Shown here: positions 19,327-29,882 of the stretch, piece by piece | How the letters are laid out: every line of letters starts with the position of its first letter | Numbering within the stretch: position 1 is the first letter of the stretch | Assembly (NCBI GenBank): GCA_002897675.1 | Contig: BDSU01000011.1 | Location: 124,001-188,000, forward strand | Length of the DNA: 64,000 bases | Source of the DNA: a bacterium BMS3Abin02 | GTDB lineage: Bacteria; Actinomycetota; Acidimicrobiia; Spongiisociales; UBA4744 | Direction: 5' to 3' | Program-made: the position numbers and the translations under genes | The notes under the pieces: generated by a model | The model's input: the letters and a program-made list of their open reading frames with translations, nothing else | Database searches by the model: none | Told to the model about the DNA's origin: nothing

Positions 19327-20175
19327 TCATCCGTCGGTAGACGTGTCGCCCGCTCGAGGCTTGGCTGCCACGAAGCGAACGCTCGACACCTTGCCGGCGA
19401 GCGCCTCGAGAACGTCCGTGGATCGTTGCCCGCAGCAGCCGGATCCCGCATCGAAGACGTCCGAATCGACGATGGCGGAGATCTGAGTTGCCTCATACGT
19501 GAGCCGGTCTGCAACGTGCACTTCGTCGAGGCCGGCGTCCCGGAGCCCATGGAGATAGTCGTCTTCGCCGATCGCCCCTCCGACGCACGAGCTGTAGAGA
19601 ACCGGATCCGCACGAACCCAGTCGGGGAGGTCTTCGACGACGAGGTCGGACACGGACATGCGACCCCCTGGTTTGAGGACCCGAGCGATCTCCGCGAACA
19701 CTTTGTCCTTCTCGGGTGAAAGGTTGATCACGCAATTCGAGATCACCCAGTCGACCGATTCGCTGTCCACCGGGAGGTCCTCGATGAGGCCTTTGCGGGC
19801 TTCCACGTTCGCGAGTCCGGATGCTGCGATGTTCTCGCGCGCCTTCGCGATCATCTCATCGGTCATGTCGATGCCGATCACGTGACCGGTGGAGCCGACC
19901 TTCTTGGCGGCAAGAAGGAGATCGATTCCCGCTCCAGACCCCAGGTCCAGAACGACGTCGCCGGGTTTGAGATCGGCGAGCGCGACTGGATTGCCACAGC
20001 CGAACGAGTTGGCGACTGCTTCCGGGGGGAGATCTCGCAGTTCTGATTCTTCGTAGCCGGCGAACCGGGCCGCGACCCCCTTGGTGGCCGGCCCGTCACA
20101 GCAACCGCCGGTTCTCGTCACTGCGTCTGCATAGGTCTCGGATACTTGCCGTCGCGTGGTTTCGACATCAGACAT
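19327..20175 (-). CDS. arsM: Arsenite S-adenosylmethionine methyltransferase ArsM
   Basis: This 282-residue class I methyltransferase methylates arsenite. The SAM motif DLGSGAG is at residues 77-83, with GIDMTDEMI at 101. The three arsenite-binding cysteines of the family are identifiable: Cys60 (FGCGNP), Cys148 (SNCVINL) and Cys197 (SSCVGGA). Extra Cys pairs occur near both ends (GGCCDG at 23-28 and a C-terminal GSGCCGQ). The ATG at 20175 follows an 8-nt overlap with arsR, so the enzyme is under ArsR control. No arsenite pump (ArsB/Acr3) is in view, so detoxification here would go through methylation. Confidence 0.93.
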   Translation of the reverse strand: MSDVETTRRQVSETYADAVTRTGGCCDGPATKGVAARFAGYEESELRDLPPEAVANSFGCGNPVALADLKPGDVVLDLGSGAGIDLLLAAKKVGSTGHVIGIDMTDEMIAKARENIAASGLANVEARKGLIEDLPVDSESVDWVISNCVINLSPEKDKVFAEIARVLKPGGRMSVSDLVVEDLPDWVRADPVLYSSCVGGAIGEDDYLHGLRDAGLDEVHVADRLTYEATQISAIVDSDVFDAGSGCCGQRSTDVLEALAGKVSSVRFVAAKPRAGDTSTDG

Positions 20176-20548
20176 CGGTCTTCCTCTCGTTGTCGTGCGT
20201 GCTCTCGGGACCGCAGCAGGCCTCGAGCGCGTCGGCGATCGATCGAAGGTTCGCGGCGAGTTCCGCGTAGGGGACCGAGTAGAAGACCTCACGTCCTCGT
20301 TTCTCGGCGGTGAGAACGCCTGCGTCCCGCATCGTGGCCAGATGCCGGGATACGACCGACAGGTCGACGGTGCAGCAGTCGGCTGCTTCCGAGACGGTGG
20401 AAGGTTCGCCTCCGGCCGAGAGCTTCGCCAGCAAGAGGATCCGGTTGGGATCGCTCAATGCCTTGAAGAACTCGGGATGCAGCACCTCTTGGAGGCGGTC
20501 GCTGCTGCAACACCCGGCTTCGGTCTGGTCATTGCATGTTTGCGTCAC
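20168..20548 (-). CDS. arsR: ArsR-family arsenic/metal-sensing repressor
   Basis: This 126-residue winged-helix repressor is expected to bind the promoter until arsenite releases it. The helix-turn-helix part runs HPEFFKALSDPNRILLLAKL to CCTVDLSVVSRHLATMRDAG, followed by the wing KRGREVFYSVPY. Candidate thiolate ligands are Cys pairs at GCCSS (N-terminus), DCCTVD (recognition helix) and EACCGPE (C-terminus), a multi-CC pattern rather than the classical ELCVCDL motif. The GTG at 20548 is chosen since a TAAGAT hexamer lies 7 nt upstream and the frame above it has no family residues. It is cotranscribed with arsM. Confidence 0.9.
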   Translation of the reverse strand: MTQTCNDQTEAGCCSSDRLQEVLHPEFFKALSDPNRILLLAKLSAGGEPSTVSEAADCCTVDLSVVSRHLATMRDAGVLTAEKRGREVFYSVPYAELAANLRSIADALEACCGPESTHDNERKTDV

Positions 20549-20561
20549 AATGCAAATCTTA
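20532..20561 (-). promoter_or_regulatory. arsR operator and leaderless promoter
   Basis: An inverted repeat TTGCAT (20532-20537) / ATGCAA (20550-20555) spans the arsR start codon, and a TAAGAT -10-like hexamer (20556-20561) abuts it. Bound ArsR would cover the transcription start, consistent with autoregulation of arsR-arsM. Confidence 0.55.
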
Positions 20562-20671
20562 CTCGGGATCGGCACAGATGCAAGCTCGCCGTTCTTCGAC
20601 ACACGTGAAGTGCGGCGCGGCGTGGTTCCCGGTACCGGCCTTCGGATGTTCCCCCGGGCGGTCCAGGAGGC

Positions 20672-20677
20672 TAGGTT
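20672..20677 (+). promoter_or_regulatory. Putative leaderless -10 element (first ABC ATPase)
   Basis: TAGGTT ends 7 nt before the ATG at 20685. An AGGAGG lies further upstream (20665-20670), 14 nt from the ATG, so both a leaderless and a leadered reading are possible. Confidence 0.35.
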
Positions 20678-20684
20678 TGCCTGG

Positions 20685-21596
20685 ATGTCCGGTCTGATCG
20701 TCACCTCAGGACTTACACACCGCTTCGGTGATGTGTTGGCGCTTGCCGATGTGAGCCTCGACGTTCCCTCCGGCAGGATCGGTCTGGTCGGGGCGAACGG
20801 CGCAGGCAAGACGACGCTCATCCGCATCTTGCTCGGCATGCTCACACCCACGCGCGGCAGCGCTCAGGTGATGGGCCTCGACGTGCGCCACGACACCCTC
20901 GCGCTGCGCTCTCGTGTCGGGTACATGCCGGAAGACGCGTGTCTTCCCGCAGCGCAGACCGCAGCCGATTTCGTCGCTTTTGCCGCAGAGCTCGCGGGGA
21001 TCCCTGCCGCGGACTCGCGGCGTCGTGCGTCCGAGATCCTGTTTCTCGTCGGGTTGCACGAGGAGCGATTCCGTTATCTCGGAGACTTCTCGACCGGCAT
21101 GCTTCAACGGGTGAAGCTGGCCCAGGCCATCGTCCACGATCCTGAAGTGACGTTTCTCGACGAACCGGCCGCCGGGCTCGATCCTGAAGGCAGGGAGCAC
21201 ATGCTCGAGTTGATCATCCGGCTCGGAGAGTTCGGAATCAGCGTCGTGTATTCGTCGCACATCCTCGATGACGTCGAGCGGACCTGCGACTGGGTCGTCA
21301 TGCTCGATGGCGGCCGATTGGTGCGCTCCGGCCCCATTGCGGCGATGGGGAGTGAAGATGCTGTGACCGTCGAAGTTCTGGACGATCCGCAGGCCTTTGT
21401 CCGTTGGCTGCACGAGCGCGGCGCCAAGGCAGACGTCGCCGGGAGATCGGTTCGTGTTCGTTTCGACGGTGACCCGTTCAACCTGGTGCGAGATGGCTTG
21501 GCCGCCACCGACACCGGTGTGCGCCGGATGGGCCGACGCGCCAGAACCCTCGAAGACGCGTTCATCGAGGATGCCCGGCCGCGGGAGGCGACGTGA
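20685..21596 (+). CDS. ABC transporter ATP-binding protein (ABC-2 type export, first pair)
   Basis: This 303-residue CcmA-like ATPase has Walker A GANGAGKTTLIRILLG near residue 34, the Q-loop YMPEDACLPAA, the signature FSTGMLQRVKLAQAI, Walker B VTFLDEPAAGLDPEGR and the switch VVYSSHILDDVERT. The C-terminal 80 residues (AVTVEVLDDPQAFVRWL onward) form the regulatory tail seen in this class. The ATG at 20685 is the first that fits the conserved LTHRFGDVLALADVSL start. It overlaps the following permease gene by 4 nt. The substrate is unknown; drugs, lipids or envelope components are possible. Confidence 0.9.
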   Translation: MSGLIVTSGLTHRFGDVLALADVSLDVPSGRIGLVGANGAGKTTLIRILLGMLTPTRGSAQVMGLDVRHDTLALRSRVGYMPEDACLPAAQTAADFVAFAAELAGIPAADSRRRASEILFLVGLHEERFRYLGDFSTGMLQRVKLAQAIVHDPEVTFLDEPAAGLDPEGREHMLELIIRLGEFGISVVYSSHILDDVERTCDWVVMLDGGRLVRSGPIAAMGSEDAVTVEVLDDPQAFVRWLHERGAKADVAGRSVRVRFDGDPFNLVRDGLAATDTGVRRMGRRARTLEDAFIEDARPREAT

Positions 21597-22486
21597 GCGA
21601 CGCCGTCATCGTCGATCGCGGCTACCGCAGCTACGAGGGGCCGCGGCTCGCTCGTAGGGGAGCGATGGCGGCCATCGTCCGCGAGAGTGTGCGTCGGGCG
21701 CTCGGCTTGCGCCGGAAGGCGAGGCGCAAGATCCTTCCCTGGTCCCTCATCGCGATGGCGATCATCTCCGTCGCGGTCCTCGTCGGCCTGCATTGGGCGG
21801 CCCAACGTGCCGGCATCGGAGGGCTCGTCGCTTCACAGCTCCCAGGGTATGGACAGTACTTCGACATCATCTCCAGGATCGCGTTGCTGTTCATCGCGTT
21901 CGCCACGCCGCAGCTCCTGGCGCCCGATCGCCGGGAAGGCGTGCTCGCCGTCTACTTCTCACGTCCGCTGCGTCCCGTCGACTATCTGGGCGCCAAGTTC
22001 GCCGGCCTCGGGATACTCGTCATGGGGTTCTATCTGGTGCCCGAGTTCGTGTTCCACATCTCACTCGCGACTCTCGCTCCGGAAGGGTTCTTCTCCTATC
22101 TGGGGGGGAACCTCGACGTGTTGTGGCAGATCACGTTCGTCGCGTTCGTCTATTTCGTCGGTCACGTCTCGATTGCCTTCGGAGTTTCTGCGTTCGTGCC
22201 GCGAACCGGTCTTGCGGCGGGTGTGTTTCTCGGGATCATGCTCATCCTGAATCAGATCGTTGCCTCCGTTGTCGAGCTGGGCACGTTCCCGGGCTCTCGT
22301 TACGTGGCTCTGCTGGCGCTCGAGGAGCATCCTCGGATCGTGCGAGATTGGGTGTTCGGCATCACGACGGGCGACTACGTGCCACGGGTGGCCGGGTTCG
22401 ACCCGTGGGTCTCACTTGCCGCCGTGGGGGTTCTCTTCGCCCTGGTCGGTGTCGGCGCGTGGGGGCGCTATCGGAGGTTGACGTGA
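21593..22486 (+). CDS. ABC-2 type permease (first pair)
   Basis: This 297-residue integral membrane protein starts at a GTG overlapping the ATPase stop. It has about six helices: LPWSLIAMAIISVAVLVGLHW, FDIISRIALLFIAFATPQLL, FAGLGILVMGFYLVPEFVF, WQITFVAFVYFVGHVSIAFG, AAGVFLGIMLILNQIVAS and AAVGVLFALVGVGAWG. The segment APDRREGVLAVYFSRPLRPVDYLGAKF is the cytoplasmic coupling motif of ABC-2 exporters of the NosY/Gld type. The N-terminal YRSYEGPR motif also fits. It pairs with the upstream ATPase and is followed by a second ATPase-permease pair in the same transcript. Confidence 0.87.
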   Translation: MSDAVIVDRGYRSYEGPRLARRGAMAAIVRESVRRALGLRRKARRKILPWSLIAMAIISVAVLVGLHWAAQRAGIGGLVASQLPGYGQYFDIISRIALLFIAFATPQLLAPDRREGVLAVYFSRPLRPVDYLGAKFAGLGILVMGFYLVPEFVFHISLATLAPEGFFSYLGGNLDVLWQITFVAFVYFVGHVSIAFGVSAFVPRTGLAAGVFLGIMLILNQIVASVVELGTFPGSRYVALLALEEHPRIVRDWVFGITTGDYVPRVAGFDPWVSLAAVGVLFALVGVGAWGRYRRLT

Positions 22487-23421
22487 GCGATCCGCTGTCG
22501 CCATCCGATCTCACCGTCGAGGCCCGGAACCTCTCGAGGTGGTTCGGGCAGAAGGTCGCCGTGTCGGAGGTAACCTGCGGTTTCGGTCCGGGGGTCACCG
22601 GTCTGCTCGGCCCCAATGGGGCAGGCAAGACCACGTTGCTGCGCATGCTGACCGGTCTCATCCGTCCGTCGGATGGTGACGTCCGGCTTCTCGGTGTCGA
22701 CCCACGATCCCGACCGGGCATCTATCGACAGGTCGCACTGGTCCCCGAGGACGAGACCGTGCACGGGTTTCTCACGGCACGGCAGTTCGTGCACTTCAAC
22801 GCCACACTCCAGCGGCTGGCAGATCCGGCGTCCGCGGCCGACAGGGCGTTGGGGCAGGTCGAACTGTCAGAGGTGGCCGACAGGCGACTGGCGACGTTCA
22901 GCAAAGGGATGCGCCAGCGGGCCAAGGTGGCCGCCATGCTCGTGCACGAGCCTCATGTGCTGTTTCTCGACGAGCCGCTCAATGGAACGGACCCGGTGCA
23001 ACGTGCACACCTGATGCGGCTCTTCGTCGAGCTCGGTGAGCAGGGCAAAACCGTCATCGTGTCCTCCCACGTGCTCGGCGAAGTGGAGCGGATGGCGGAT
23101 CGGGTCGTTGCAATGATCGATGGTCGTGTGGCGGGCGCCGGGACGGTTCCCGCCTTGCGGAGTGCGATGTCCGATATCCCCAGGAGACTGCGAATCGGTT
23201 GCGACCGGCCTCGGGTTCTCGCCGCGGCGCTCGTCGAGCACGAGTCTGTGGGGGGTGTCACCGTCGAGGGTGACGATGTGCTCGGAGTCGACGCGCTCGA
23301 CTCCGAAGCGCTTGGCCGGGCACTGCCGCGTATCGCCCTCGATTCGGATGTGCGGCTGGTTTCGGTGGATCCGCAGGACGAATCGCTCGAGAGCACGTTT
23401 CGATATCTGGTGAGCCGATGA
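22483..23421 (+). CDS. ABC transporter ATP-binding protein (second pair)
   Basis: This 312-residue CcmA-like ATPase has Walker A GPNGAGKTTLLRMLTG near residue 44, the Q-loop LVPEDETVHGFLTARQFV, the signature FSKGMRQRAKVAAML, Walker B VLFLDEPLNGTDPVQR and the switch VSSHVLGEVERMADR. The GTG at 22483 overlaps the upstream permease stop (GTGA). It is similar in plan to the first ATPase but clearly diverged (for example NGTDP for AGLDP in the D-loop), so the pairs arose from an old duplication rather than a recent one. It overlaps the next permease by 4 nt. Confidence 0.9.
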   Translation: MSDPLSPSDLTVEARNLSRWFGQKVAVSEVTCGFGPGVTGLLGPNGAGKTTLLRMLTGLIRPSDGDVRLLGVDPRSRPGIYRQVALVPEDETVHGFLTARQFVHFNATLQRLADPASAADRALGQVELSEVADRRLATFSKGMRQRAKVAAMLVHEPHVLFLDEPLNGTDPVQRAHLMRLFVELGEQGKTVIVSSHVLGEVERMADRVVAMIDGRVAGAGTVPALRSAMSDIPRRLRIGCDRPRVLAAALVEHESVGGVTVEGDDVLGVDALDSEALGRALPRIALDSDVRLVSVDPQDESLESTFRYLVSR

Positions 23422-24161
23422 AGGCCTTCCTGGCGATCGGTGTGTTCACACTCCGCAAGTTGATGGGTCGTCGACGGGTCACCGGCCTGCTCTTGCTGAC
23501 CGTGCTTCCGGCGATCATCGTCGCGCTGGTCGGCAAGAGCGCAGGCGACCCCGAGCAGTTGACCCGGGGGTTGACGGTGGGTGTTCTCCTGGCCGTGGCG
23601 ATTCCGGTGGTTGCCCTCGTCAACTCGTCCGCCGCGCTCGGTGACCAGCGGCGCGAGCATCTACTGCCGTACATGACGCTGAAGCCGCTTCCACGATCGG
23701 TCATCGTCGGCGCGGTGCTCGCCGGCTCGGTCCTTGCGACACTCGCCATCGGAGGAGCGGGGGTTGCGGCCCTGTGGCTCGCCGGCGGCTGGGTGACCGG
23801 TTCGTGGACCGTCGGCTGGCCGGCGGCCGTCGCGCTGATCGTGTCCGCCCTCTCCTACGGGGCCGTGTTCATCCCGGTCGGTTACCTGTTCAGGCGAGGA
23901 ACACTGATCGGCTTGATCTACATCTTCTTCTGGGAGGCGATCCTGGCCTCGGCCGTCCCGACTCTGGCCACATCGTCGCTCTGGCGGATCGGTCTGGCCG
24001 CGTATCTCGGGTTGCTGGCCGAGCCGGCGAAGGAGTTCGTGGATCTGCTCGGCACCGTGCAGCCGGGTGTCGGCGGTGCGTTCGTCAAAGCCGGGGTGCT
24101 CGTCGTCGTATCCGTGTTGCTGACGACGTGGCTGCTGCGAAGTCGGGATCAGGTCATCTAG
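23418..24161 (+). CDS. ABC-2 type permease (second pair)
   Basis: This 247-residue membrane protein has six hydrophobic segments, including VTGLLLLTVLPAIIVALVG, LLAVAIPVVALVNSSAALGD, GAVLAGSVLATLAIGGAGVAALWL and AFVKAGVLVVVSVLLTTWLL. The loop SAALGDQRREHLLPYMTLKPLPRS is the coupling motif that matches the first permease's REGVLAVYFSRPLRP. It closes the four-gene ABC operon. Two ATPases and two permeases could form one heteromeric exporter or two separate ones. The gene is convergent with the HAD phosphatase gene, 23 bp away. Confidence 0.85.
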   Translation: MKAFLAIGVFTLRKLMGRRRVTGLLLLTVLPAIIVALVGKSAGDPEQLTRGLTVGVLLAVAIPVVALVNSSAALGDQRREHLLPYMTLKPLPRSVIVGAVLAGSVLATLAIGGAGVAALWLAGGWVTGSWTVGWPAAVALIVSALSYGAVFIPVGYLFRRGTLIGLIYIFFWEAILASAVPTLATSSLWRIGLAAYLGLLAEPAKEFVDLLGTVQPGVGGAFVKAGVLVVVSVLLTTWLLRSRDQVI

Positions 24162-24184
24162 TCGGTAGAGGGTACCCGGCACTT

Positions 24185-24955
24185 TCAAGCCGGTTGCCGG
24201 CCGTGGCTTCGCCCAAGCAGATACGTTGCCGTGGCGACACCGGCCGCACCTGCGACCGCAGTCGTCGTGCCGATCACCCGTTTCGCGGTTCTGGAGAATT
24301 CGATGATCGGCCATCCCCGGTGATAGGCGAGTGATTCGAGTGCCCGATCGGGATTGACGGCGACGGGATGTCCGACCAGCTCCAACATCGGGACGTCGGA
24401 GACCGAATCCGAGTACGCGTAGCAGAGACGCAGGTCGTAGCCTCGGTCGGACGCGAGTTTCGAGACGGCGGCCGCCTTCCCCTTTCCATAGCAGAACGGT
24501 TCCGAGAGCCGCCCCGTGTAGACACCGTCGGAGATCTCCGAAACGGTGCCGATCCCGCCGGTCATGCCGATCGCCTCCGCGAATTCGCGAACGATCTCGA
24601 TCGGAGAAGCGGACACGATGTAGGTGTCCCTGCCGGCTTCATGGTGCAGATCGATGAGTGCCTGAGACTCCCTTCGGACCGCTTCGAGGAGCTGTGCGAT
24701 GACCTCGTCGCCAAGTTGCTCGACATCGGTGACGGGCGTTCCCTTGATCACCTCGAGGATTCGGTCGCGAACCGCGTCCGCTTTTTCGTCCGATGAACTT
24801 CCGAGCCGGAAGAGGACGGCGTTGACGGCGTCACCGAAGAGCTGGTTGGTCGTGACCATGCCGTGGCGCCACGCGGCCATCCCGAAGGCGAACACCGAAG
24901 ATCCCGAGATCAGTGTTCTGTCGAGGTCGAAGAATGCGGCCGCCGTGTCGTCCAT
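24185..24955 (-). CDS. HAD-IB family phosphatase (SerB/CicA-like)
   Basis: This 256-residue HAD hydrolase has motif I DLDRT with nucleophile Asp10 and Asp12, motif II serine in YIVSASPIEIV, the Lys region CYGKGKAAA and motif IV YAYSDSVSDVPML. HAD-IB members dephosphorylate phosphoserine or, in actinobacteria, lipid or sugar phosphates. The cap region is helical (about residues 20-95). The C-terminus is a hydrophobic, possibly membrane-associated helix (VIGTTTAVAGAAGVATATYLL), which points to a lipid phosphate substrate rather than free phosphoserine (inference). A TAGCCT hexamer sits 6 nt upstream of the ATG. Confidence 0.87.
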   Translation of the reverse strand: MDDTAAAFFDLDRTLISGSSVFAFGMAAWRHGMVTTNQLFGDAVNAVLFRLGSSSDEKADAVRDRILEVIKGTPVTDVEQLGDEVIAQLLEAVRRESQALIDLHHEAGRDTYIVSASPIEIVREFAEAIGMTGGIGTVSEISDGVYTGRLSEPFCYGKGKAAAVSKLASDRGYDLRLCYAYSDSVSDVPMLELVGHPVAVNPDRALESLAYHRGWPIIEFSRTAKRVIGTTTAVAGAAGVATATYLLGRSHGRQPA

Positions 24956-24961
24956 ACGGCG

Positions 24962-24985
24962 AGGCTATCACGCGGGCGCTACGCT
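24962..24985. promoter_or_regulatory. Back-to-back leaderless promoters (HAD and NYN genes)
   Basis: The 36-bp gap between divergent start codons holds TAGCCT on the minus strand (24962-24967), 6 nt before the HAD start, and TACGCT on the plus strand (24980-24985), 6 nt before the NYN start. Each fits a leaderless -10. The -35 zones would lie inside the opposite gene, so the two promoters probably compete. Confidence 0.55.
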
Positions 24986-24991
24986 GGGTCC

Positions 24992-26047
24992 ATGGCTGTA
25001 GAAGAAGAACGTATCGCCCTGTTTCTGGACTACGAGAACCTGGCTATCGGCGCCAGGGACATCGGTCTCCAATTCGACTTCAAACCGATCGCCGACGCCC
25101 TCGCCGAACGCGGGAGGGTCGTGGTGCGGAAGGCATATGCAGAGTGGTCGGCCTTTCCGGACGACCGCCGCATGCTGACACGACACAACGTTGAGCTCAC
25201 CGAGATCCCACAGCGCCTCGGCGCCGTGCGCAAGAACGCCGCCGACATCAAGATGGCCGTCGACGCGATCGAGCTCGCATTCGAGAGGGGATACCTGACG
25301 ACGTTCGTTCTCGGAACGGGGGACAGCGACTTCACGCCACTCGTGCACAAGCTGCGATCGCTCAACAAGCAGGTCATCGGTGTCGGCGTCAAGGGGTCAA
25401 CATCCGCTCTCCTGCCTCCTGCGTGCGATGAGTTCCTCTTCTACGAACGACTCAAGGGGGTCGAAGAGCCGCGAACCCGCAGGAAGAGCGTTGCCCGGGA
25501 AGAGAAGCCGACCGAAACCGGAACCGAAACGGAACCCGAGCCCGAGACCGGTGAGAACGGCTCCATCGAGGATCTGGTCACATTGATCACCCAGACGCTT
25601 GCAGGGCTGCAGAGCACCTCGGGCGGCGCCGTCGTCGCATCCAGCCTCAAGCGGGCGATTCTCCGCAAGGATCCGACGTTCTCCGAGTCGGACTTCGGGT
25701 TCAGAGGATTCGGTGAGCTATTGCGCCATCTCGAATCGAGGAGTGTGATCGAGCTGGGCGAGGGTCCGGCAAAGGGTGATCCCGTCGTCAGTTTCACGAC
25801 CGAGGGCAAGGGAGAGGAAAAGGCCTTCGGTCTGCTTCGTCAGGTCGTACTCGAACTCGAAGCCGGAGGGAGCCCTCCGCTGCTGTCCGGACTGAAGAAC
25901 CAGCTTCGCAAACGAAGCCCCGGTTTCTCGGAGAAACGCTACGGCTTCAGCGGCTTCCTCCAGTTCTGCAAGGCCGCTCGCACACGCGGCATCATCGACC
26001 TGCACTGGGACGACGATGCCGGCGACTACGTGGTGAACTCACAATGA
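24992..26047 (+). CDS. NYN-domain ribonuclease-like protein with two OST-HTH/LOTUS domains
   Basis: This 351-residue protein has an N-terminal NYN/PIN-like domain (LabA/DUF88 type). ALFLDYENLAIGA carries the first acidic residue (Asp13); NAADIKMAVDAIELA and LGTGDSDFTPLV carry the others, which together would hold the catalytic metal. A low-complexity Glu/Thr/Pro linker of about 40 residues follows (ETGTETEPEPETGE). Two OST-HTH (LOTUS) modules follow: GGAVVASSLKRAILRKDPTF...FGFRGFGELLRHL and GGSPPLLSGLKNQLRKRSPG...YGFSGFLQFCKAA. LOTUS domains bind RNA. A cytoplasmic RNA-processing nuclease is inferred; the target RNA is unknown. Confidence 0.9.
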   Translation: MAVEEERIALFLDYENLAIGARDIGLQFDFKPIADALAERGRVVVRKAYAEWSAFPDDRRMLTRHNVELTEIPQRLGAVRKNAADIKMAVDAIELAFERGYLTTFVLGTGDSDFTPLVHKLRSLNKQVIGVGVKGSTSALLPPACDEFLFYERLKGVEEPRTRRKSVAREEKPTETGTETEPEPETGENGSIEDLVTLITQTLAGLQSTSGGAVVASSLKRAILRKDPTFSESDFGFRGFGELLRHLESRSVIELGEGPAKGDPVVSFTTEGKGEEKAFGLLRQVVLELEAGGSPPLLSGLKNQLRKRSPGFSEKRYGFSGFLQFCKAARTRGIIDLHWDDDAGDYVVNSQ

Positions 26048-26050
26048 GAA

Positions 26051-26070
26051 GCGGGCCCTGACGGGCCCGC
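26051..26070. terminator. Bidirectional terminator hairpin
   Basis: GCGGGCCC (26051-26058) and GGGCCCGC (26063-26070) form a perfect 8-bp stem with a TGAC loop. It starts 3 nt after the NYN stop and lies 23 nt from the convergent glutamate dehydrogenase stop, so it can end both transcripts. There is no strong T-tract. Confidence 0.7.
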
Positions 26071-26093
26071 CACTCGTCACTCGGTCGGGCCGA

Positions 26094-27452
26094 TCACGGC
26101 CAGATACCGCGGTGGGAGGCTGCAGTGGCGCATCTTCCTGCGGCCACGATGTACGCAGCGGTCCTCAGGTTGGGATAGGGCACCTCTTCTCCCGGATGGG
26201 ATTCTGACCATACGGTGCGAGTCTCCTCGATCCCCTCCTGAACATCGGCCAGGGTCGAGATCACTTTGTCCGTTGCCCGGTACATCTTCTTGCGGAGCTT
26301 CGCGTGGACCTCCTCCTCATCCCACTGCTGGTCTTCGATGTTCTGCACCCACTCGTAGTACGAGACGACGACACCGCCTGCGTTGGCCAGAATGTCGGGC
26401 AGGACAGGGATTCCCTTCGCCGCAAGGACTGCGTCGGCCGCCGGCGTCGTGGGGCCGTTGGCGGCCTCCACGAGGACCTTGGCGTTGATCCGATCCGCGT
26501 TCGCTGCGGTGATCTGATTCTCGAGTGCGGCCGGAATCAGGATGTCGCACGGCACTTCGAGCACCTCCAGCGGCGCAAGTGCCTTCGTCCCGTCGAGTTC
26601 GACAACGCTGGCGGTGCGGTCCTTGTGCTCTTCGACACGAGCCACGTCGAGGCCGTTGGGATCGAAGATCCCGCCCTTCGTGTCGCTCACTGCGACGATG
26701 GTCGCTCCGGCCTTTTCGAACAAGATCGCTGCATTGCGACCGGCATTGCCGAACCCCTGGATCGCCACCGTCGCTCCTTCGAGTGATGGAAGATCGGGCC
26801 GTCCGCCGAGATGGAGGAACCGCTCGGTCACGAACAAGGCTCCCTGTGCAGTGGCCGTCGGGCGCCCGAGCGAACCGCCGAGGTCGAGCGGCTTTCCGGT
26901 CACGACCGGTCGGTTGTTCTGTCCGGGGTGCATCATCGAATACGTGTCGAAGATCCACGCCATGGTCTGGGCGTCGGTGTAGACGTCGGGGGCGGGGATG
27001 TCGGTATACGGACCGATGTTGGAGCCGAGGGCGGCGATGAAACGGCGTGTGATCGAAGCCTTTTCATGTTGGGAGATCTTGCGAGGGTCGACCTGGACGC
27101 CGCCCTTTGCACCGCCGAACGGGATATCGACGAGGGCGCATTTGAGCGTCATCCAGGCTGCCAGCGCCCGGACCTCGTCTTCACTCACCTGGGGATGAAA
27201 ACGGATGCCTCCCTTCCCCGGACCGCGGACCGCCGAGTTGAGCACCCGGTAGCCGTAGAAGACTTCGATGTGACCGTCATCCATGCGGATGGGCAGGGTC
27301 ACGTTGACCGACTGTTCCGGTTCGAACAGCCACTCGGTCAGACCGGGGGACTCAGCCAGTTCCCGTATGTACGGGATCACCTGCTCGAACTGATGCCGAG
27401 CAATGTGGTTCGGGTTGAGGTCCTCAACGAAGGCGCGCTCGGGCGCTGTCAT
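26094..27452 (-). CDS. gdhA: Glutamate dehydrogenase (Glu/Leu/Phe/Val dehydrogenase family)
   Basis: This 452-residue enzyme interconverts glutamate and 2-oxoglutarate plus ammonia with NAD(P). The substrate domain carries GKGGIRFHPQVSEDEVRALAAWM and the catalytic-lysine region CALVDIPFGGAKGGVQVDP. The dinucleotide motif is VAIQGFGNAGRNAAILFEKAG. The later PAALENQITAANADRI and EAANGPTTPAADAVL are conserved. The ATG at 27452 is preceded by AGAGGAGAC 6 nt upstream; an in-frame ATG at 27470 is less likely. Specificity between NAD and NADP is not certain. It is a central nitrogen-metabolism gene. Confidence 0.93.
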   Translation of the reverse strand: MTAPERAFVEDLNPNHIARHQFEQVIPYIRELAESPGLTEWLFEPEQSVNVTLPIRMDDGHIEVFYGYRVLNSAVRGPGKGGIRFHPQVSEDEVRALAAWMTLKCALVDIPFGGAKGGVQVDPRKISQHEKASITRRFIAALGSNIGPYTDIPAPDVYTDAQTMAWIFDTYSMMHPGQNNRPVVTGKPLDLGGSLGRPTATAQGALFVTERFLHLGGRPDLPSLEGATVAIQGFGNAGRNAAILFEKAGATIVAVSDTKGGIFDPNGLDVARVEEHKDRTASVVELDGTKALAPLEVLEVPCDILIPAALENQITAANADRINAKVLVEAANGPTTPAADAVLAAKGIPVLPDILANAGGVVVSYYEWVQNIEDQQWDEEEVHAKLRKKMYRATDKVISTLADVQEGIEETRTVWSESHPGEEVPYPNLRTAAYIVAAGRCATAASHRGIWP

Positions 27453-27563
27453 GGTGTCTCCTCTGGACATGCCGGCTTTGGGTGTGCGGAAAGAATGCCC
27501 CTGCGGCGGAGCGTGGTCTCGGTTCGAGCCGGCTGGTGCGATCCCGGATCTGGCACGTCGAGG

Positions 27564-27594
27564 AGTCTACGTTGTCGGATTGGGAAAGTCACAA
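27564..27594 (-). promoter_or_regulatory. Putative gdhA promoter
   Basis: On the minus strand TTGTGA (27594-27589) and TAGACT (27569-27564) resemble -35 and -10 hexamers with a 19-bp spacer. The 10-bp palindrome AACGATCGTT just upstream (27597-27606) could be a regulator site. Confidence 0.4.
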
Positions 27595-27849
27595 CAAACG
27601 ATCGTTCGCCGAGCGGCCGATTGGTGGTCGCGACGCCTCGTCGGGCAACGGCGTGTTCATACGGGCCGGAGTGCTTCACGGCTGTCGGCTCGAGGTGCTC
27701 TCCACTCGGCACAGTGTACGACTGGGCATTGTCGCGCCTGAGTCGTCACGCCCGCCCCGTGGTCCTGCACCGATGCCGCGTCGCGGTACCGGGTACGGCG
27801 GACAAAGCGAGCCTGTGACCGATCGTGAGCCGGCCTCCGAGAGGACGAA

Positions 27850-27887: not shown

Positions 27888-29882
27888 ATGGTTCTCGATC
27901 GCCTCAGACTCAAGCGCGCCTTCGAACAATGGGACACCGCCCGCTTCCTCGGGCTGGCGGTCATCGTCGGTGTCCTGGTCGGTGCGGGCGCCTCCCTGCT
28001 GATCGCGATGATCATGTGGATGCGCGGCAGCGTCGGGCAGATTCCACTCGGCCGCTGGGTGCCGGTCCTCGTCATCCCGCTCGGGATTCTGGTGGCATGG
28101 TTCGTCTCTAGCCGGTGGTCGCCCGAAGTCGAAGGCGACGGTGTTCCGGCAACGATCGAGGGATTGGCGATACGGTCCGGCTACCTGCCGAGCCGGGCCG
28201 TGATCTGGAAGTTCCTCGTGACGGCGTTGACTCTGGGCACGGGCGGTTCGGGAGGTCGGGAGGGTCCGATCGTGCAGATCGGAGCGACGATCGGCTCGTC
28301 CATCGCCCGGCACACGAACCTGGGCGAGGATCAGGTCCGGAGCCTGGTTGCCGCCGGCGCGGGAGCTGCGATCGGCGCGAGCTTCAACGCTCCGATCGCC
28401 GGCATGCTGTTCGCCATGGAAGTGATCTTGCGCACGCTGTCGATTCGACATCTCTCTGCAGTGGTCGTCGCCTCGGTCGCTGCCGCCGTGACGACCAGGA
28501 GCATATCCGGCGGAGAGGAGATCCTGAGGGCGCAGGCGTACGGCCTCATCCCACACAGGGAATGGCAGGAGCTGCTCATCTACGCGGCGCTCGGGATTGC
28601 CATCGCCGTGCTCGCCTGGGCGTTCCTGCGGTTGTTGGGATGGACCGAGGAACTCTCGGAACGATTCACGAGATGGCCGTGGCTGCGGCCCCTCGCTTTC
28701 GGGCTCGTGATCGCGCTGATCGGCGTCGTGGAGCCGGACGTGCTCGGCACCGGACAGGATTTCGTGGCACGGATCGTCAACATCTCGGTCTCCGGAACTC
28801 AGGTCTGGTGGCTGCTGATGGTGCTCGCCGCGCTGAAGATCGTCACGACGTCTGCGACGATCAGTTCCGGCGGTTCGGGGGGAGCGTTCATGCCGAGCCT
28901 CTTCATCGGTGCGGCCTTCGGCGCCGGTCTCGCCGAGCTTCTGGCCCCTGCGTGGACGCTGTCGCCGCTTCGGCCCGGACCGTTCGCCGTCGTCGGAATG
29001 GCTGCCATGTTCGCGGCGGTCGCTCGCGCGCCGCTGACCTCCATTCTGATCGTGTTCGAGATCACCCAGGACTACAAGCTCCTGCTTCCGCTCATGCTTG
29101 CCGTGTCCCTCGCCACCCTCATCGCCGACGTGCTGAGTCCGGAGAGTGTCTACACGATGCCGTTGATCCGCAAGGGCATTCAACTGGTCCACGCTTCGGA
29201 GGTCGACGTGCTCGACACCATCATGATCGGTGACGTGATGTCTGGACAGTCCCCGGTCGCTCCTCACATGACTCTGAAGGAGGCCATGGAGATTCTCAAC
29301 GAACACGGCCATCACGGCGCTGCGGTACTCGACAACGGTCGTCTCGTCGGCGTGTTGAGCATATCGGATATCCTTCGGCAGCAGTCGACCGGCCTGGTCG
29401 CCGACGCGATGACGCCCCGTCCGGTGACCGTGACCGCGAACACTCCGGTGAGCCGGGCGCTGGAACGCATGGCCGCGCTCGGTGTTTCCCGGCTCCCCGT
29501 TGTCGCAGAGGACGACCCCACCCGTCTCGTGGGGATGTTCCGACGTGAAGATATCGTCAAGGCCTACCACGTCGCTCTGGGCTCCGCCACCGGTGTCCAG
29601 CTGGCGAGAGATCGCCTGCGGCGCAAGACCGAGCCCGGCGTCTCCTTCTTCGAGATCCAGGTGCCGGAGGAGCTCAGCGGGCAGCTACTCAAAGACGTCT
29701 CGTGGCCGGACGACTGCACGATCGTCTCCGTCAGGCGCCGCACGACGGTCTACGTTCCCCGTGGAGACACACGTCTGGAAGCAGGCGATGTCATCACGGT
29801 GTTTGGCACGAACACCGCCAGAGACGAACTGGTGGCCCGCATGGGGCACACCGGCGTGGCAGGTTCCGCAGGTATCGAATAG
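27888..29882 (+). CDS. ClC chloride channel/antiporter with CBS and RCK_C domains
   Basis: This 664-residue ClC protein has about ten membrane segments. Selectivity-filter motifs are GSGGREGPIVQ (GREGP at 123-127, with the gating Glu retained, which suggests a proton-coupled exchanger or gated channel) and GSGGAFMPSL near residue 330. Two CBS domains follow from about 440 to 565 (VMSGQSPVAPHMTLKEAMEIL... and AMTPRPVTVTANTPVSRALERM). A C-terminal RCK_C/TrkA_C-like domain follows (FFEIQVPEELSGQLLKDVSWP...LEAGDVITVFGT). The CBS and RCK_C pair suggests gating by nucleotides. The ATG has an upstream palindrome and no Shine-Dalgarno. Confidence 0.92.
   Translation: MVLDRLRLKRAFEQWDTARFLGLAVIVGVLVGAGASLLIAMIMWMRGSVGQIPLGRWVPVLVIPLGILVAWFVSSRWSPEVEGDGVPATIEGLAIRSGYLPSRAVIWKFLVTALTLGTGGSGGREGPIVQIGATIGSSIARHTNLGEDQVRSLVAAGAGAAIGASFNAPIAGMLFAMEVILRTLSIRHLSAVVVASVAAAVTTRSISGGEEILRAQAYGLIPHREWQELLIYAALGIAIAVLAWAFLRLLGWTEELSERFTRWPWLRPLAFGLVIALIGVVEPDVLGTGQDFVARIVNISVSGTQVWWLLMVLAALKIVTTSATISSGGSGGAFMPSLFIGAAFGAGLAELLAPAWTLSPLRPGPFAVVGMAAMFAAVARAPLTSILIVFEITQDYKLLLPLMLAVSLATLIADVLSPESVYTMPLIRKGIQLVHASEVDVLDTIMIGDVMSGQSPVAPHMTLKEAMEILNEHGHHGAAVLDNGRLVGVLSISDILRQQSTGLVADAMTPRPVTVTANTPVSRALERMAALGVSRLPVVAEDDPTRLVGMFRREDIVKAYHVALGSATGVQLARDRLRRKTEPGVSFFEIQVPEELSGQLLKDVSWPDDCTIVSVRRRTTVYVPRGDTRLEAGDVITVFGTNTARDELVARMGHTGVAGSAGIE

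Follow-up and report, generated by a model that had tools for sequence, protein, structure and literature searches.

A protein that joins an NYN nuclease-type domain to LOTUS domains, which are known chiefly from proteins of the animal germ line, is encoded in the window (the whole 64,000-nucleotide stretch of DNA that was analysed) beside a divergent gene for a HAD phosphatase. This locus raises the question of whether the protein is a nuclease acting on RNA, and whether it acts alone or together with its neighbour. Our results make it likely that the protein is a stand-alone endonuclease of RNA processing or decay, which its LOTUS domains would aim at structured or G-rich RNA and which would be made from a leaderless mRNA.

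The gene and its relatives

The open reading frame at 24992..26047 (+) is a genuine gene, with an ATG start and 351 amino acids followed by a stop codon. Its layout of an NYN domain and two LOTUS domains was confirmed, with agreement between the domain models, the comparison of profiles and the folds predicted. The longest mechanical ORF begins upstream of the chosen ATG, at GTG 24863, but homology and an upstream TANNNT box both favour the start at 24992. PF01936 and PF12872 were the only Pfam domains in the protein at E <= 0.01, and PF01936 had a single match in the window's own genome. A PF12872 search of this genome and 14 controls was insensitive, as it matched nowhere although hmmscan detects the domain here. 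The gene lies 36 bp from the HAD gene on one side and 46 bp from a glutamate dehydrogenase-type gene on the other.

The gene was found in several actinobacterial lineages, where it is widespread and well kept but patchy. From 137 loci, 55 non-redundant orthologs were picked at <80% identity, with two incomplete frames excluded, and the 54 other than the window protein share 56-76% identity with it. Among 59 relatives, 39 carried a full-length ortholog in one piece, 2 a copy in part or in pieces, 6 a weak NYN match and 12 no match, and the corresponding counts for the 149 genomes of the class were 52, 5, 8 and 84. At the level of the phylum, 115 of 246 genomes matched, many of them weakly over the NYN part alone. 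Orthologs of about 62-65% identity were present, among the matches listed, in named organisms including Micromonospora, Catellatospora, Dactylosporangium and others. A plasmid search matched 157 records, all at <60% identity and none covering >80% of the query, and the best matches were from Caballeronia (about 40% identity). Since the gene is widespread yet patchy, it is probably not essential.

Several other forms were noted in the course of this survey. Besides its full-length copy, genome G026 has another match that covers only residues 3-179, and the two are located at C44:3598-4599 and C52:7187-7720. Different layouts occur among the NYN relatives of further actinobacterial families: those in family f42 have frames of 277-295 aa, in which the NYN domain and about one LOTUS domain aligned at 41-43% identity, and those in family f31 have longer frames of about 490-1240 aa. 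The NYN match in five genomes of family f28 lies 9.4-10.9 kb from the contig start.

Anantharaman, Zhang and Aravind (2010) described bacterial DUF88 proteins with one or two C-terminal OST-HTH domains and predicted RNase activity for them (PMC2848206), and with this architecture published in 2010 the kind of protein was already known. Judged by its sequence, the window protein is an actinobacterial case of this bacterial NYN(DUF88)-OST-HTH family, with predicted RNase activity. It resembles the DUF88/LK-nuclease-OST-HTH proteins in its N-terminal NYN domain, a nuclease domain of the PIN/NYN superfamily, and its C-terminal OST-HTH domains (PMC2848206). What sets it apart is its place in a branch from the Actinomycetota that has two LOTUS domains and a linker of varying length, and its putative leaderless promoter, a feature that the part of PMC2848206 consulted does not mention. 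MARF1/limkain b1 of human and mouse likewise combines an NYN fold with LOTUS domains. However, MARF1 carries eight LOTUS domains, besides two RRMs and a decapping-binding region at its C-terminus, whereas in the window protein Pfam found only NYN and OST-HTH, and no RRM domain, at E <= 0.01. The DUF883 ribosome-hibernation proteins are a family separate from DUF88 (PMC13159725), and the NYN protein of a Thermus RNase paper is PhoH-like and belongs to another family than NYN-LOTUS (PMC4229858).

The NYN domain and the two LOTUS domains

The NYN (PIN-like nuclease) domain occupies residues 7-151 (25010..25444, +) and matched PF01936 with 111.3 bits (cut-off 24.2). Seven putative active-site or motif residues, D13, E15, N16, D85, D91, D111, and D113, were invariant in 55/55 non-redundant orthologs, as were K81, N82, and S112 among other positions of the domain. 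The profile score and the invariant acids bear out the nuclease-type domain of the original prediction. The closest solved NYN structure is VPA0982 of Vibrio parahaemolyticus (PDB 2qip), on which the model of the domain was superposed with Z 21.2 (154 aligned, 2.2 A, 27% identity; VIA-align). The acidic residues D13, D85, D91, D111, and D113 are common to both proteins in the alignment, while E15 is not shared. The 2qip chain (165 residues) is an NYN domain alone, titled 'unknown function', whereas the window protein adds LOTUS domains to it. The model also matched the NYN domain of MARF1 at Z 19.4 (146 aligned, 2.5 A) and Z 18.4 (146 aligned, 3.0 A). The human MARF1 NYN domain is a Mn/Mg-dependent endoribonuclease by assay, and changing two of its active-site Asp residues lowers its activity (PMC6294520). 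As far as the sequence can tell, the NYN active site of the window protein looks intact, and the protein may well cut RNA.

A variable linker follows at residues 156-190 (25457..25561, +), where the model has low confidence (pLDDT under 50 at residues 164-188). The region aligned to the linker measures 16-85 residues across orthologs (median 30), and no residue in 160-190 was invariant in the alignment of 55 orthologs. The first LOTUS/OST-HTH domain spans residues 192-268 (25565..25795, +) and the second residues 275-350 (25814..26041, +), both placed by profiles, the model and VIA-align. The whole protein scored 32.9 bits against PF12872 (cut-off 23.8), but no individual stretch reached E 0.01 in the whole-protein scan, so the halves were scanned separately in the 55 orthologs. 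Taken alone, the first half of the window protein matched with E 0.00095 (19.4 bits) and the second with E 0.00067 (19.9 bits), both below the curated cut-off of 23.8 bits. At E <= 0.01 the number of orthologs with a match, out of 55, was 53 for the first half and 47 for the second. The two halves also matched each other, with an hhalign probability of 98% and E 1.8e-13. The claim of two LOTUS domains thus holds on separate profile matches, the comparison of the halves and the predicted folds.

The AlphaFold2 model (mean pLDDT 88.7) consists of an NYN fold, a low-confidence linker and two winged helices, and with a pTM of 0.51 it does not fix the relative orientation of the domains. In both winged helices an additional short helix separates helices 2 and 3, a trait described for OST-HTH domains (PMC2848206), and in this they resemble the LOTUS domains of NE0665 (PDB 2kpm), TDRD7, Tejas, and Oskar. 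The motifs of this insert, GFRGF and GFSGF, fit the family motif Ghxph in the glycine and both hydrophobic places, while the fourth place is small (G/A) and not polar in the commonest ortholog variants. LOTUS2 was superposed on the TDRD7 LOTUS domain with Z 11.3 (74 aligned, 1.8 A; VIA-align). LOTUS1, which reached a pLDDT of 92.3 when modelled alone, matched the LOTUS domains of Tejas (Z 10.4, 74 aligned, 2.3 A) and TDRD7 (Z 9.2, 76 aligned, 2.6 A), with ORC/MCM winged helices near these best LOTUS rows (Z 8.6-9.3; VIA-align). Foldseek gave no match for LOTUS1 alone at E <= 0.001, and Fur winged helices were its top rows. The assignment of LOTUS1 therefore draws on the profile results and, more weakly, on VIA-align, and because its fold is near the ORC/MCM and Fur winged helices, DNA binding would on fold alone also be possible. 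The invariant residues of LOTUS1 in the 55 orthologs include K220, R221, R225, and K226, and an invariant G262-D263-P264 sits between its two strands in the model. The net charge of the LOTUS domains is near-neutral (family median -2 each), a charge that alone gives no hint of nucleic-acid binding.

Both domains resemble eukaryotic LOTUS folds, so they might instead bind a protein, such as an RNA helicase or decay factor, in the manner of eLOTUS and Vasa. A partner rather than RNA would then guide the NYN domain. The mLOTUS domains of animals have been proposed to recruit CCR4-NOT, but this complex is absent from bacteria (PMC6168497). Unlike eLOTUS, the window domains have no C-terminal extension, a part that is required if Vasa is to be bound: in the model the last strand of LOTUS2 closes at residue 350 of 351, and LOTUS1 leads straight into helix 1 of LOTUS2. 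Bacterial LOTUS domains in general seem to be without this extension (Jeske 2017, PMC5458760). These points make protein-guided targeting unlikely, and we continue to favour LOTUS domains that would themselves direct the nuclease to RNA.

Conservation is highest in the NYN domain, where the commonest residue has a mean share of 0.83, against 0.73 in LOTUS1, 0.65 in LOTUS2 and 0.32 in the linker. This conservation and the seven invariant motif residues argue against an NYN domain that serves in vivo as a regulatory RNA- or DNA-binding module, with a LabA-like signalling role, and not as a nuclease. Such a role is suggested by a PADLOC match to PDLC01154, 'LabA-like protein, NYN family nuclease' (26.5 bits), and would accord with the lack of any known activity in this lineage, but we regard it as very doubtful.

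Promoter region and neighbouring genes

The divergent gene at 24185..24955 (-) encodes a HAD-IB family hydrolase of 256 aa that matched TIGR01490 with 183.7 bits (cut-off 98.3), and the gap between the two genes (24956-24991) is 36 bp, just as originally predicted. A -10-like element, TACGCT, lies 6 nt before the NYN ATG (24980..24985, +) and another, TAGCCT, 6 nt before the HAD ATG (24962..24967, -), so that each side of the gap has the form TANNNT-N6-ATG. A TANNNT box just before the start codon is characteristic of leaderless mRNA, which is common in actinobacteria. With ortholog starts set from the protein alignment, independently of the box, TANNNT was found 5-9 nt before the start of 44 of the 55 NYN orthologs, at 6-7 nt in 38 of these, and at positions farther than 9 nt upstream in only 0-2 orthologs each. 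As a control, the box preceded 3 of 672 internal in-frame ATG/GTG codons of window genes. The 11 orthologs without it (L041, L084, L099, L118, L120, L121, L123, L124, L127, L129, and L130) were retained in the count of 55, and L118, L120, L121, and L129 have Shine-Dalgarno-like stretches by eye. Of the 43 script-called genes in the window, 6 carry the box ahead of a start candidate (mean 3.1 candidates per gene). The NYN gene falls outside these six because its ATG is 129 nt into the longest ORF and the limit was 120 nt. As the box is not rare in the window, counting these six and the NYN gene, it is notable for its conservation and not for its kind. We infer that the NYN gene is transcribed as a leaderless mRNA.

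The 'compact double promoter' of the original prediction stands as far as the boxes before each ATG go; no sigma-70 -35/-10 consensus pair was found by a scan of 24000-27600, and the gap is more aptly read as holding a pair of putative leaderless promoters placed back to back. With 12 bp between the boxes and 37 bp between the predicted start sites, simultaneous occupancy of both promoters by polymerase seems scarcely possible. At locus L004 (genome G002) the NYN and HAD -10-like boxes overlap by 2 bp, by eye, in what we take to resemble published bidirectional promoters.

The short gap and its symmetric boxes could mean that the two proteins form a functional pair with a shared promoter region, in which the target of the phosphatase is the nuclease itself or a product of the nuclease's pathway. 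The same arrangement was seen by eye in the genus's other genome (L003), and at L004 the gap is about 22 bp by eye, with overlapping -10-like boxes. However, the two genes were adjacent in 5 genomes among 111 loci (the window's own, G001, G002, G003, and G004), all of one family; the 26 later loci, L112-L137, lie outside this count. Even within these the gap changes, from 36 bp in the window's own genome and G001 to 75 bp (G003) and 181 bp (G004) in genus g3. HAD orthologs of at least 49% identity were present in 13 other genomes of the order, of which 11 had the HAD and NYN genes on different contigs and 2 had no NYN match, in draft assemblies where contig ends limit the comparison and loci carry 1.5 to 6 kb per side at most. 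A tight divergent pair would show wherever the flank is present in the loci. Since adjacency was found in one family only and close HAD orthologs elsewhere in the order were never seen beside the NYN gene, a functional pair is not supported. For the pairing, to which the original prediction gave weight, a meaning beyond this family is likewise not supported, and it looks like a local accident; a shared function is most improbable.

The stand-alone nuclease that we favour accords with the rest of its surroundings. No gene neighbour was present in >3 of 18 long non-redundant loci (out of 55 non-redundant loci, at most 6 kb per side), counting frames of >=90 aa that passed a codon-composition filter. 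A conserved operon partner was rejected, as none occurred across lineages in these 18 loci. The largest neighbour cluster was also discarded, as 48 of its 51 members were antisense shadow ORFs over the NYN gene. Micromonosporaceae loci share many neighbours, for example clusters in 13-16 of 74 long loci, as expected from close kinship. A phage-defence or toxin nuclease is the weakest of the explanations and barely credible: the same PADLOC match and the best PHROG match (50.8 bits), whose group has no known function, speak for it, but the small adjacent antitoxin gene of a type II toxin-antitoxin system (PIN toxin) is absent in the window, where the 36 and 46 bp gaps leave no space for one (the survey of the relatives' neighbours covered frames of >=90 aa), no neighbour recurs across lineages, the genome has one PF01936 match, and the orthologs are both well conserved and full-length in most of the 59 relatives.

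Other genes of the window were noted in passing. A ClC-type chloride channel with CBS and TrkA-C domains (27888-29882, +) is encoded at most a few kb from the NYN gene here and in several other Acidimicrobiia loci, a loose regional synteny found in 3 of the 18 long non-redundant loci. On the other side, an ABC transporter gene run (20310-24161, +) encodes two ATPases and a protein with a weak ABC-2-type permease match, and its fourth frame (23418-24161) had no Pfam match at E <= 0.01. A methyltransferase with cysteine motifs (19327-20292, -), included in the Pfam run, resembles an arsenite methyltransferase, and the frame at 20168-20851 (-), upstream of and overlapping it, resembles an ArsR-type regulator by eye. 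Rfam (gathering thresholds) and ARAGORN found three tRNAs only in the window.

Proposed role of the protein

As a stand-alone RNA endonuclease, the protein would use its NYN domain as a divalent-metal-dependent endoribonuclease of the PIN-like superfamily, to which a flexible linker would join two minimal LOTUS winged helices. The tandem LOTUS domains would place the nuclease on its target by binding RNA that is structured or G-rich; G-quadruplex RNA binding has been reported for LOTUS domains, including bacterial ones (Ding 2020, as cited in PMC12247748). The protein would be made from a leaderless mRNA and may serve general RNA processing or decay, not a local pathway with a neighbour. In agreement with the original prediction that it has no known bacterial substrate, no substrate or role of a bacterial NYN-LOTUS protein was found in a literature search limited to open-licence papers, which also gave no biochemical assay of the protein or of orthologs close to it.

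It is also conceivable, though improbable, that the protein is an Actinomycetota endoribonuclease that clears G-quadruplex or G-rich RNA by means of its tandem LOTUS domains and whose own leaderless mRNA evades its attack. If so, it would give a GC-rich lineage a means of removing G-quadruplex and structured G-rich RNAs, and its mRNA, leaderless in most lineages, would be without a structured 5' leader for the enzyme to attack.

The role of LOTUS domains in bacteria has been named as an open question (PMC5458760, PMC6168497). Compact and well conserved, with a nuclease site that looks intact, the NYN-LOTUS protein is a good test case for bacterial LOTUS function. Given this site and the orthologs that the matches listed include in cultured Micromonospora, RNA binding, RNA cutting and phenotype are directly testable.
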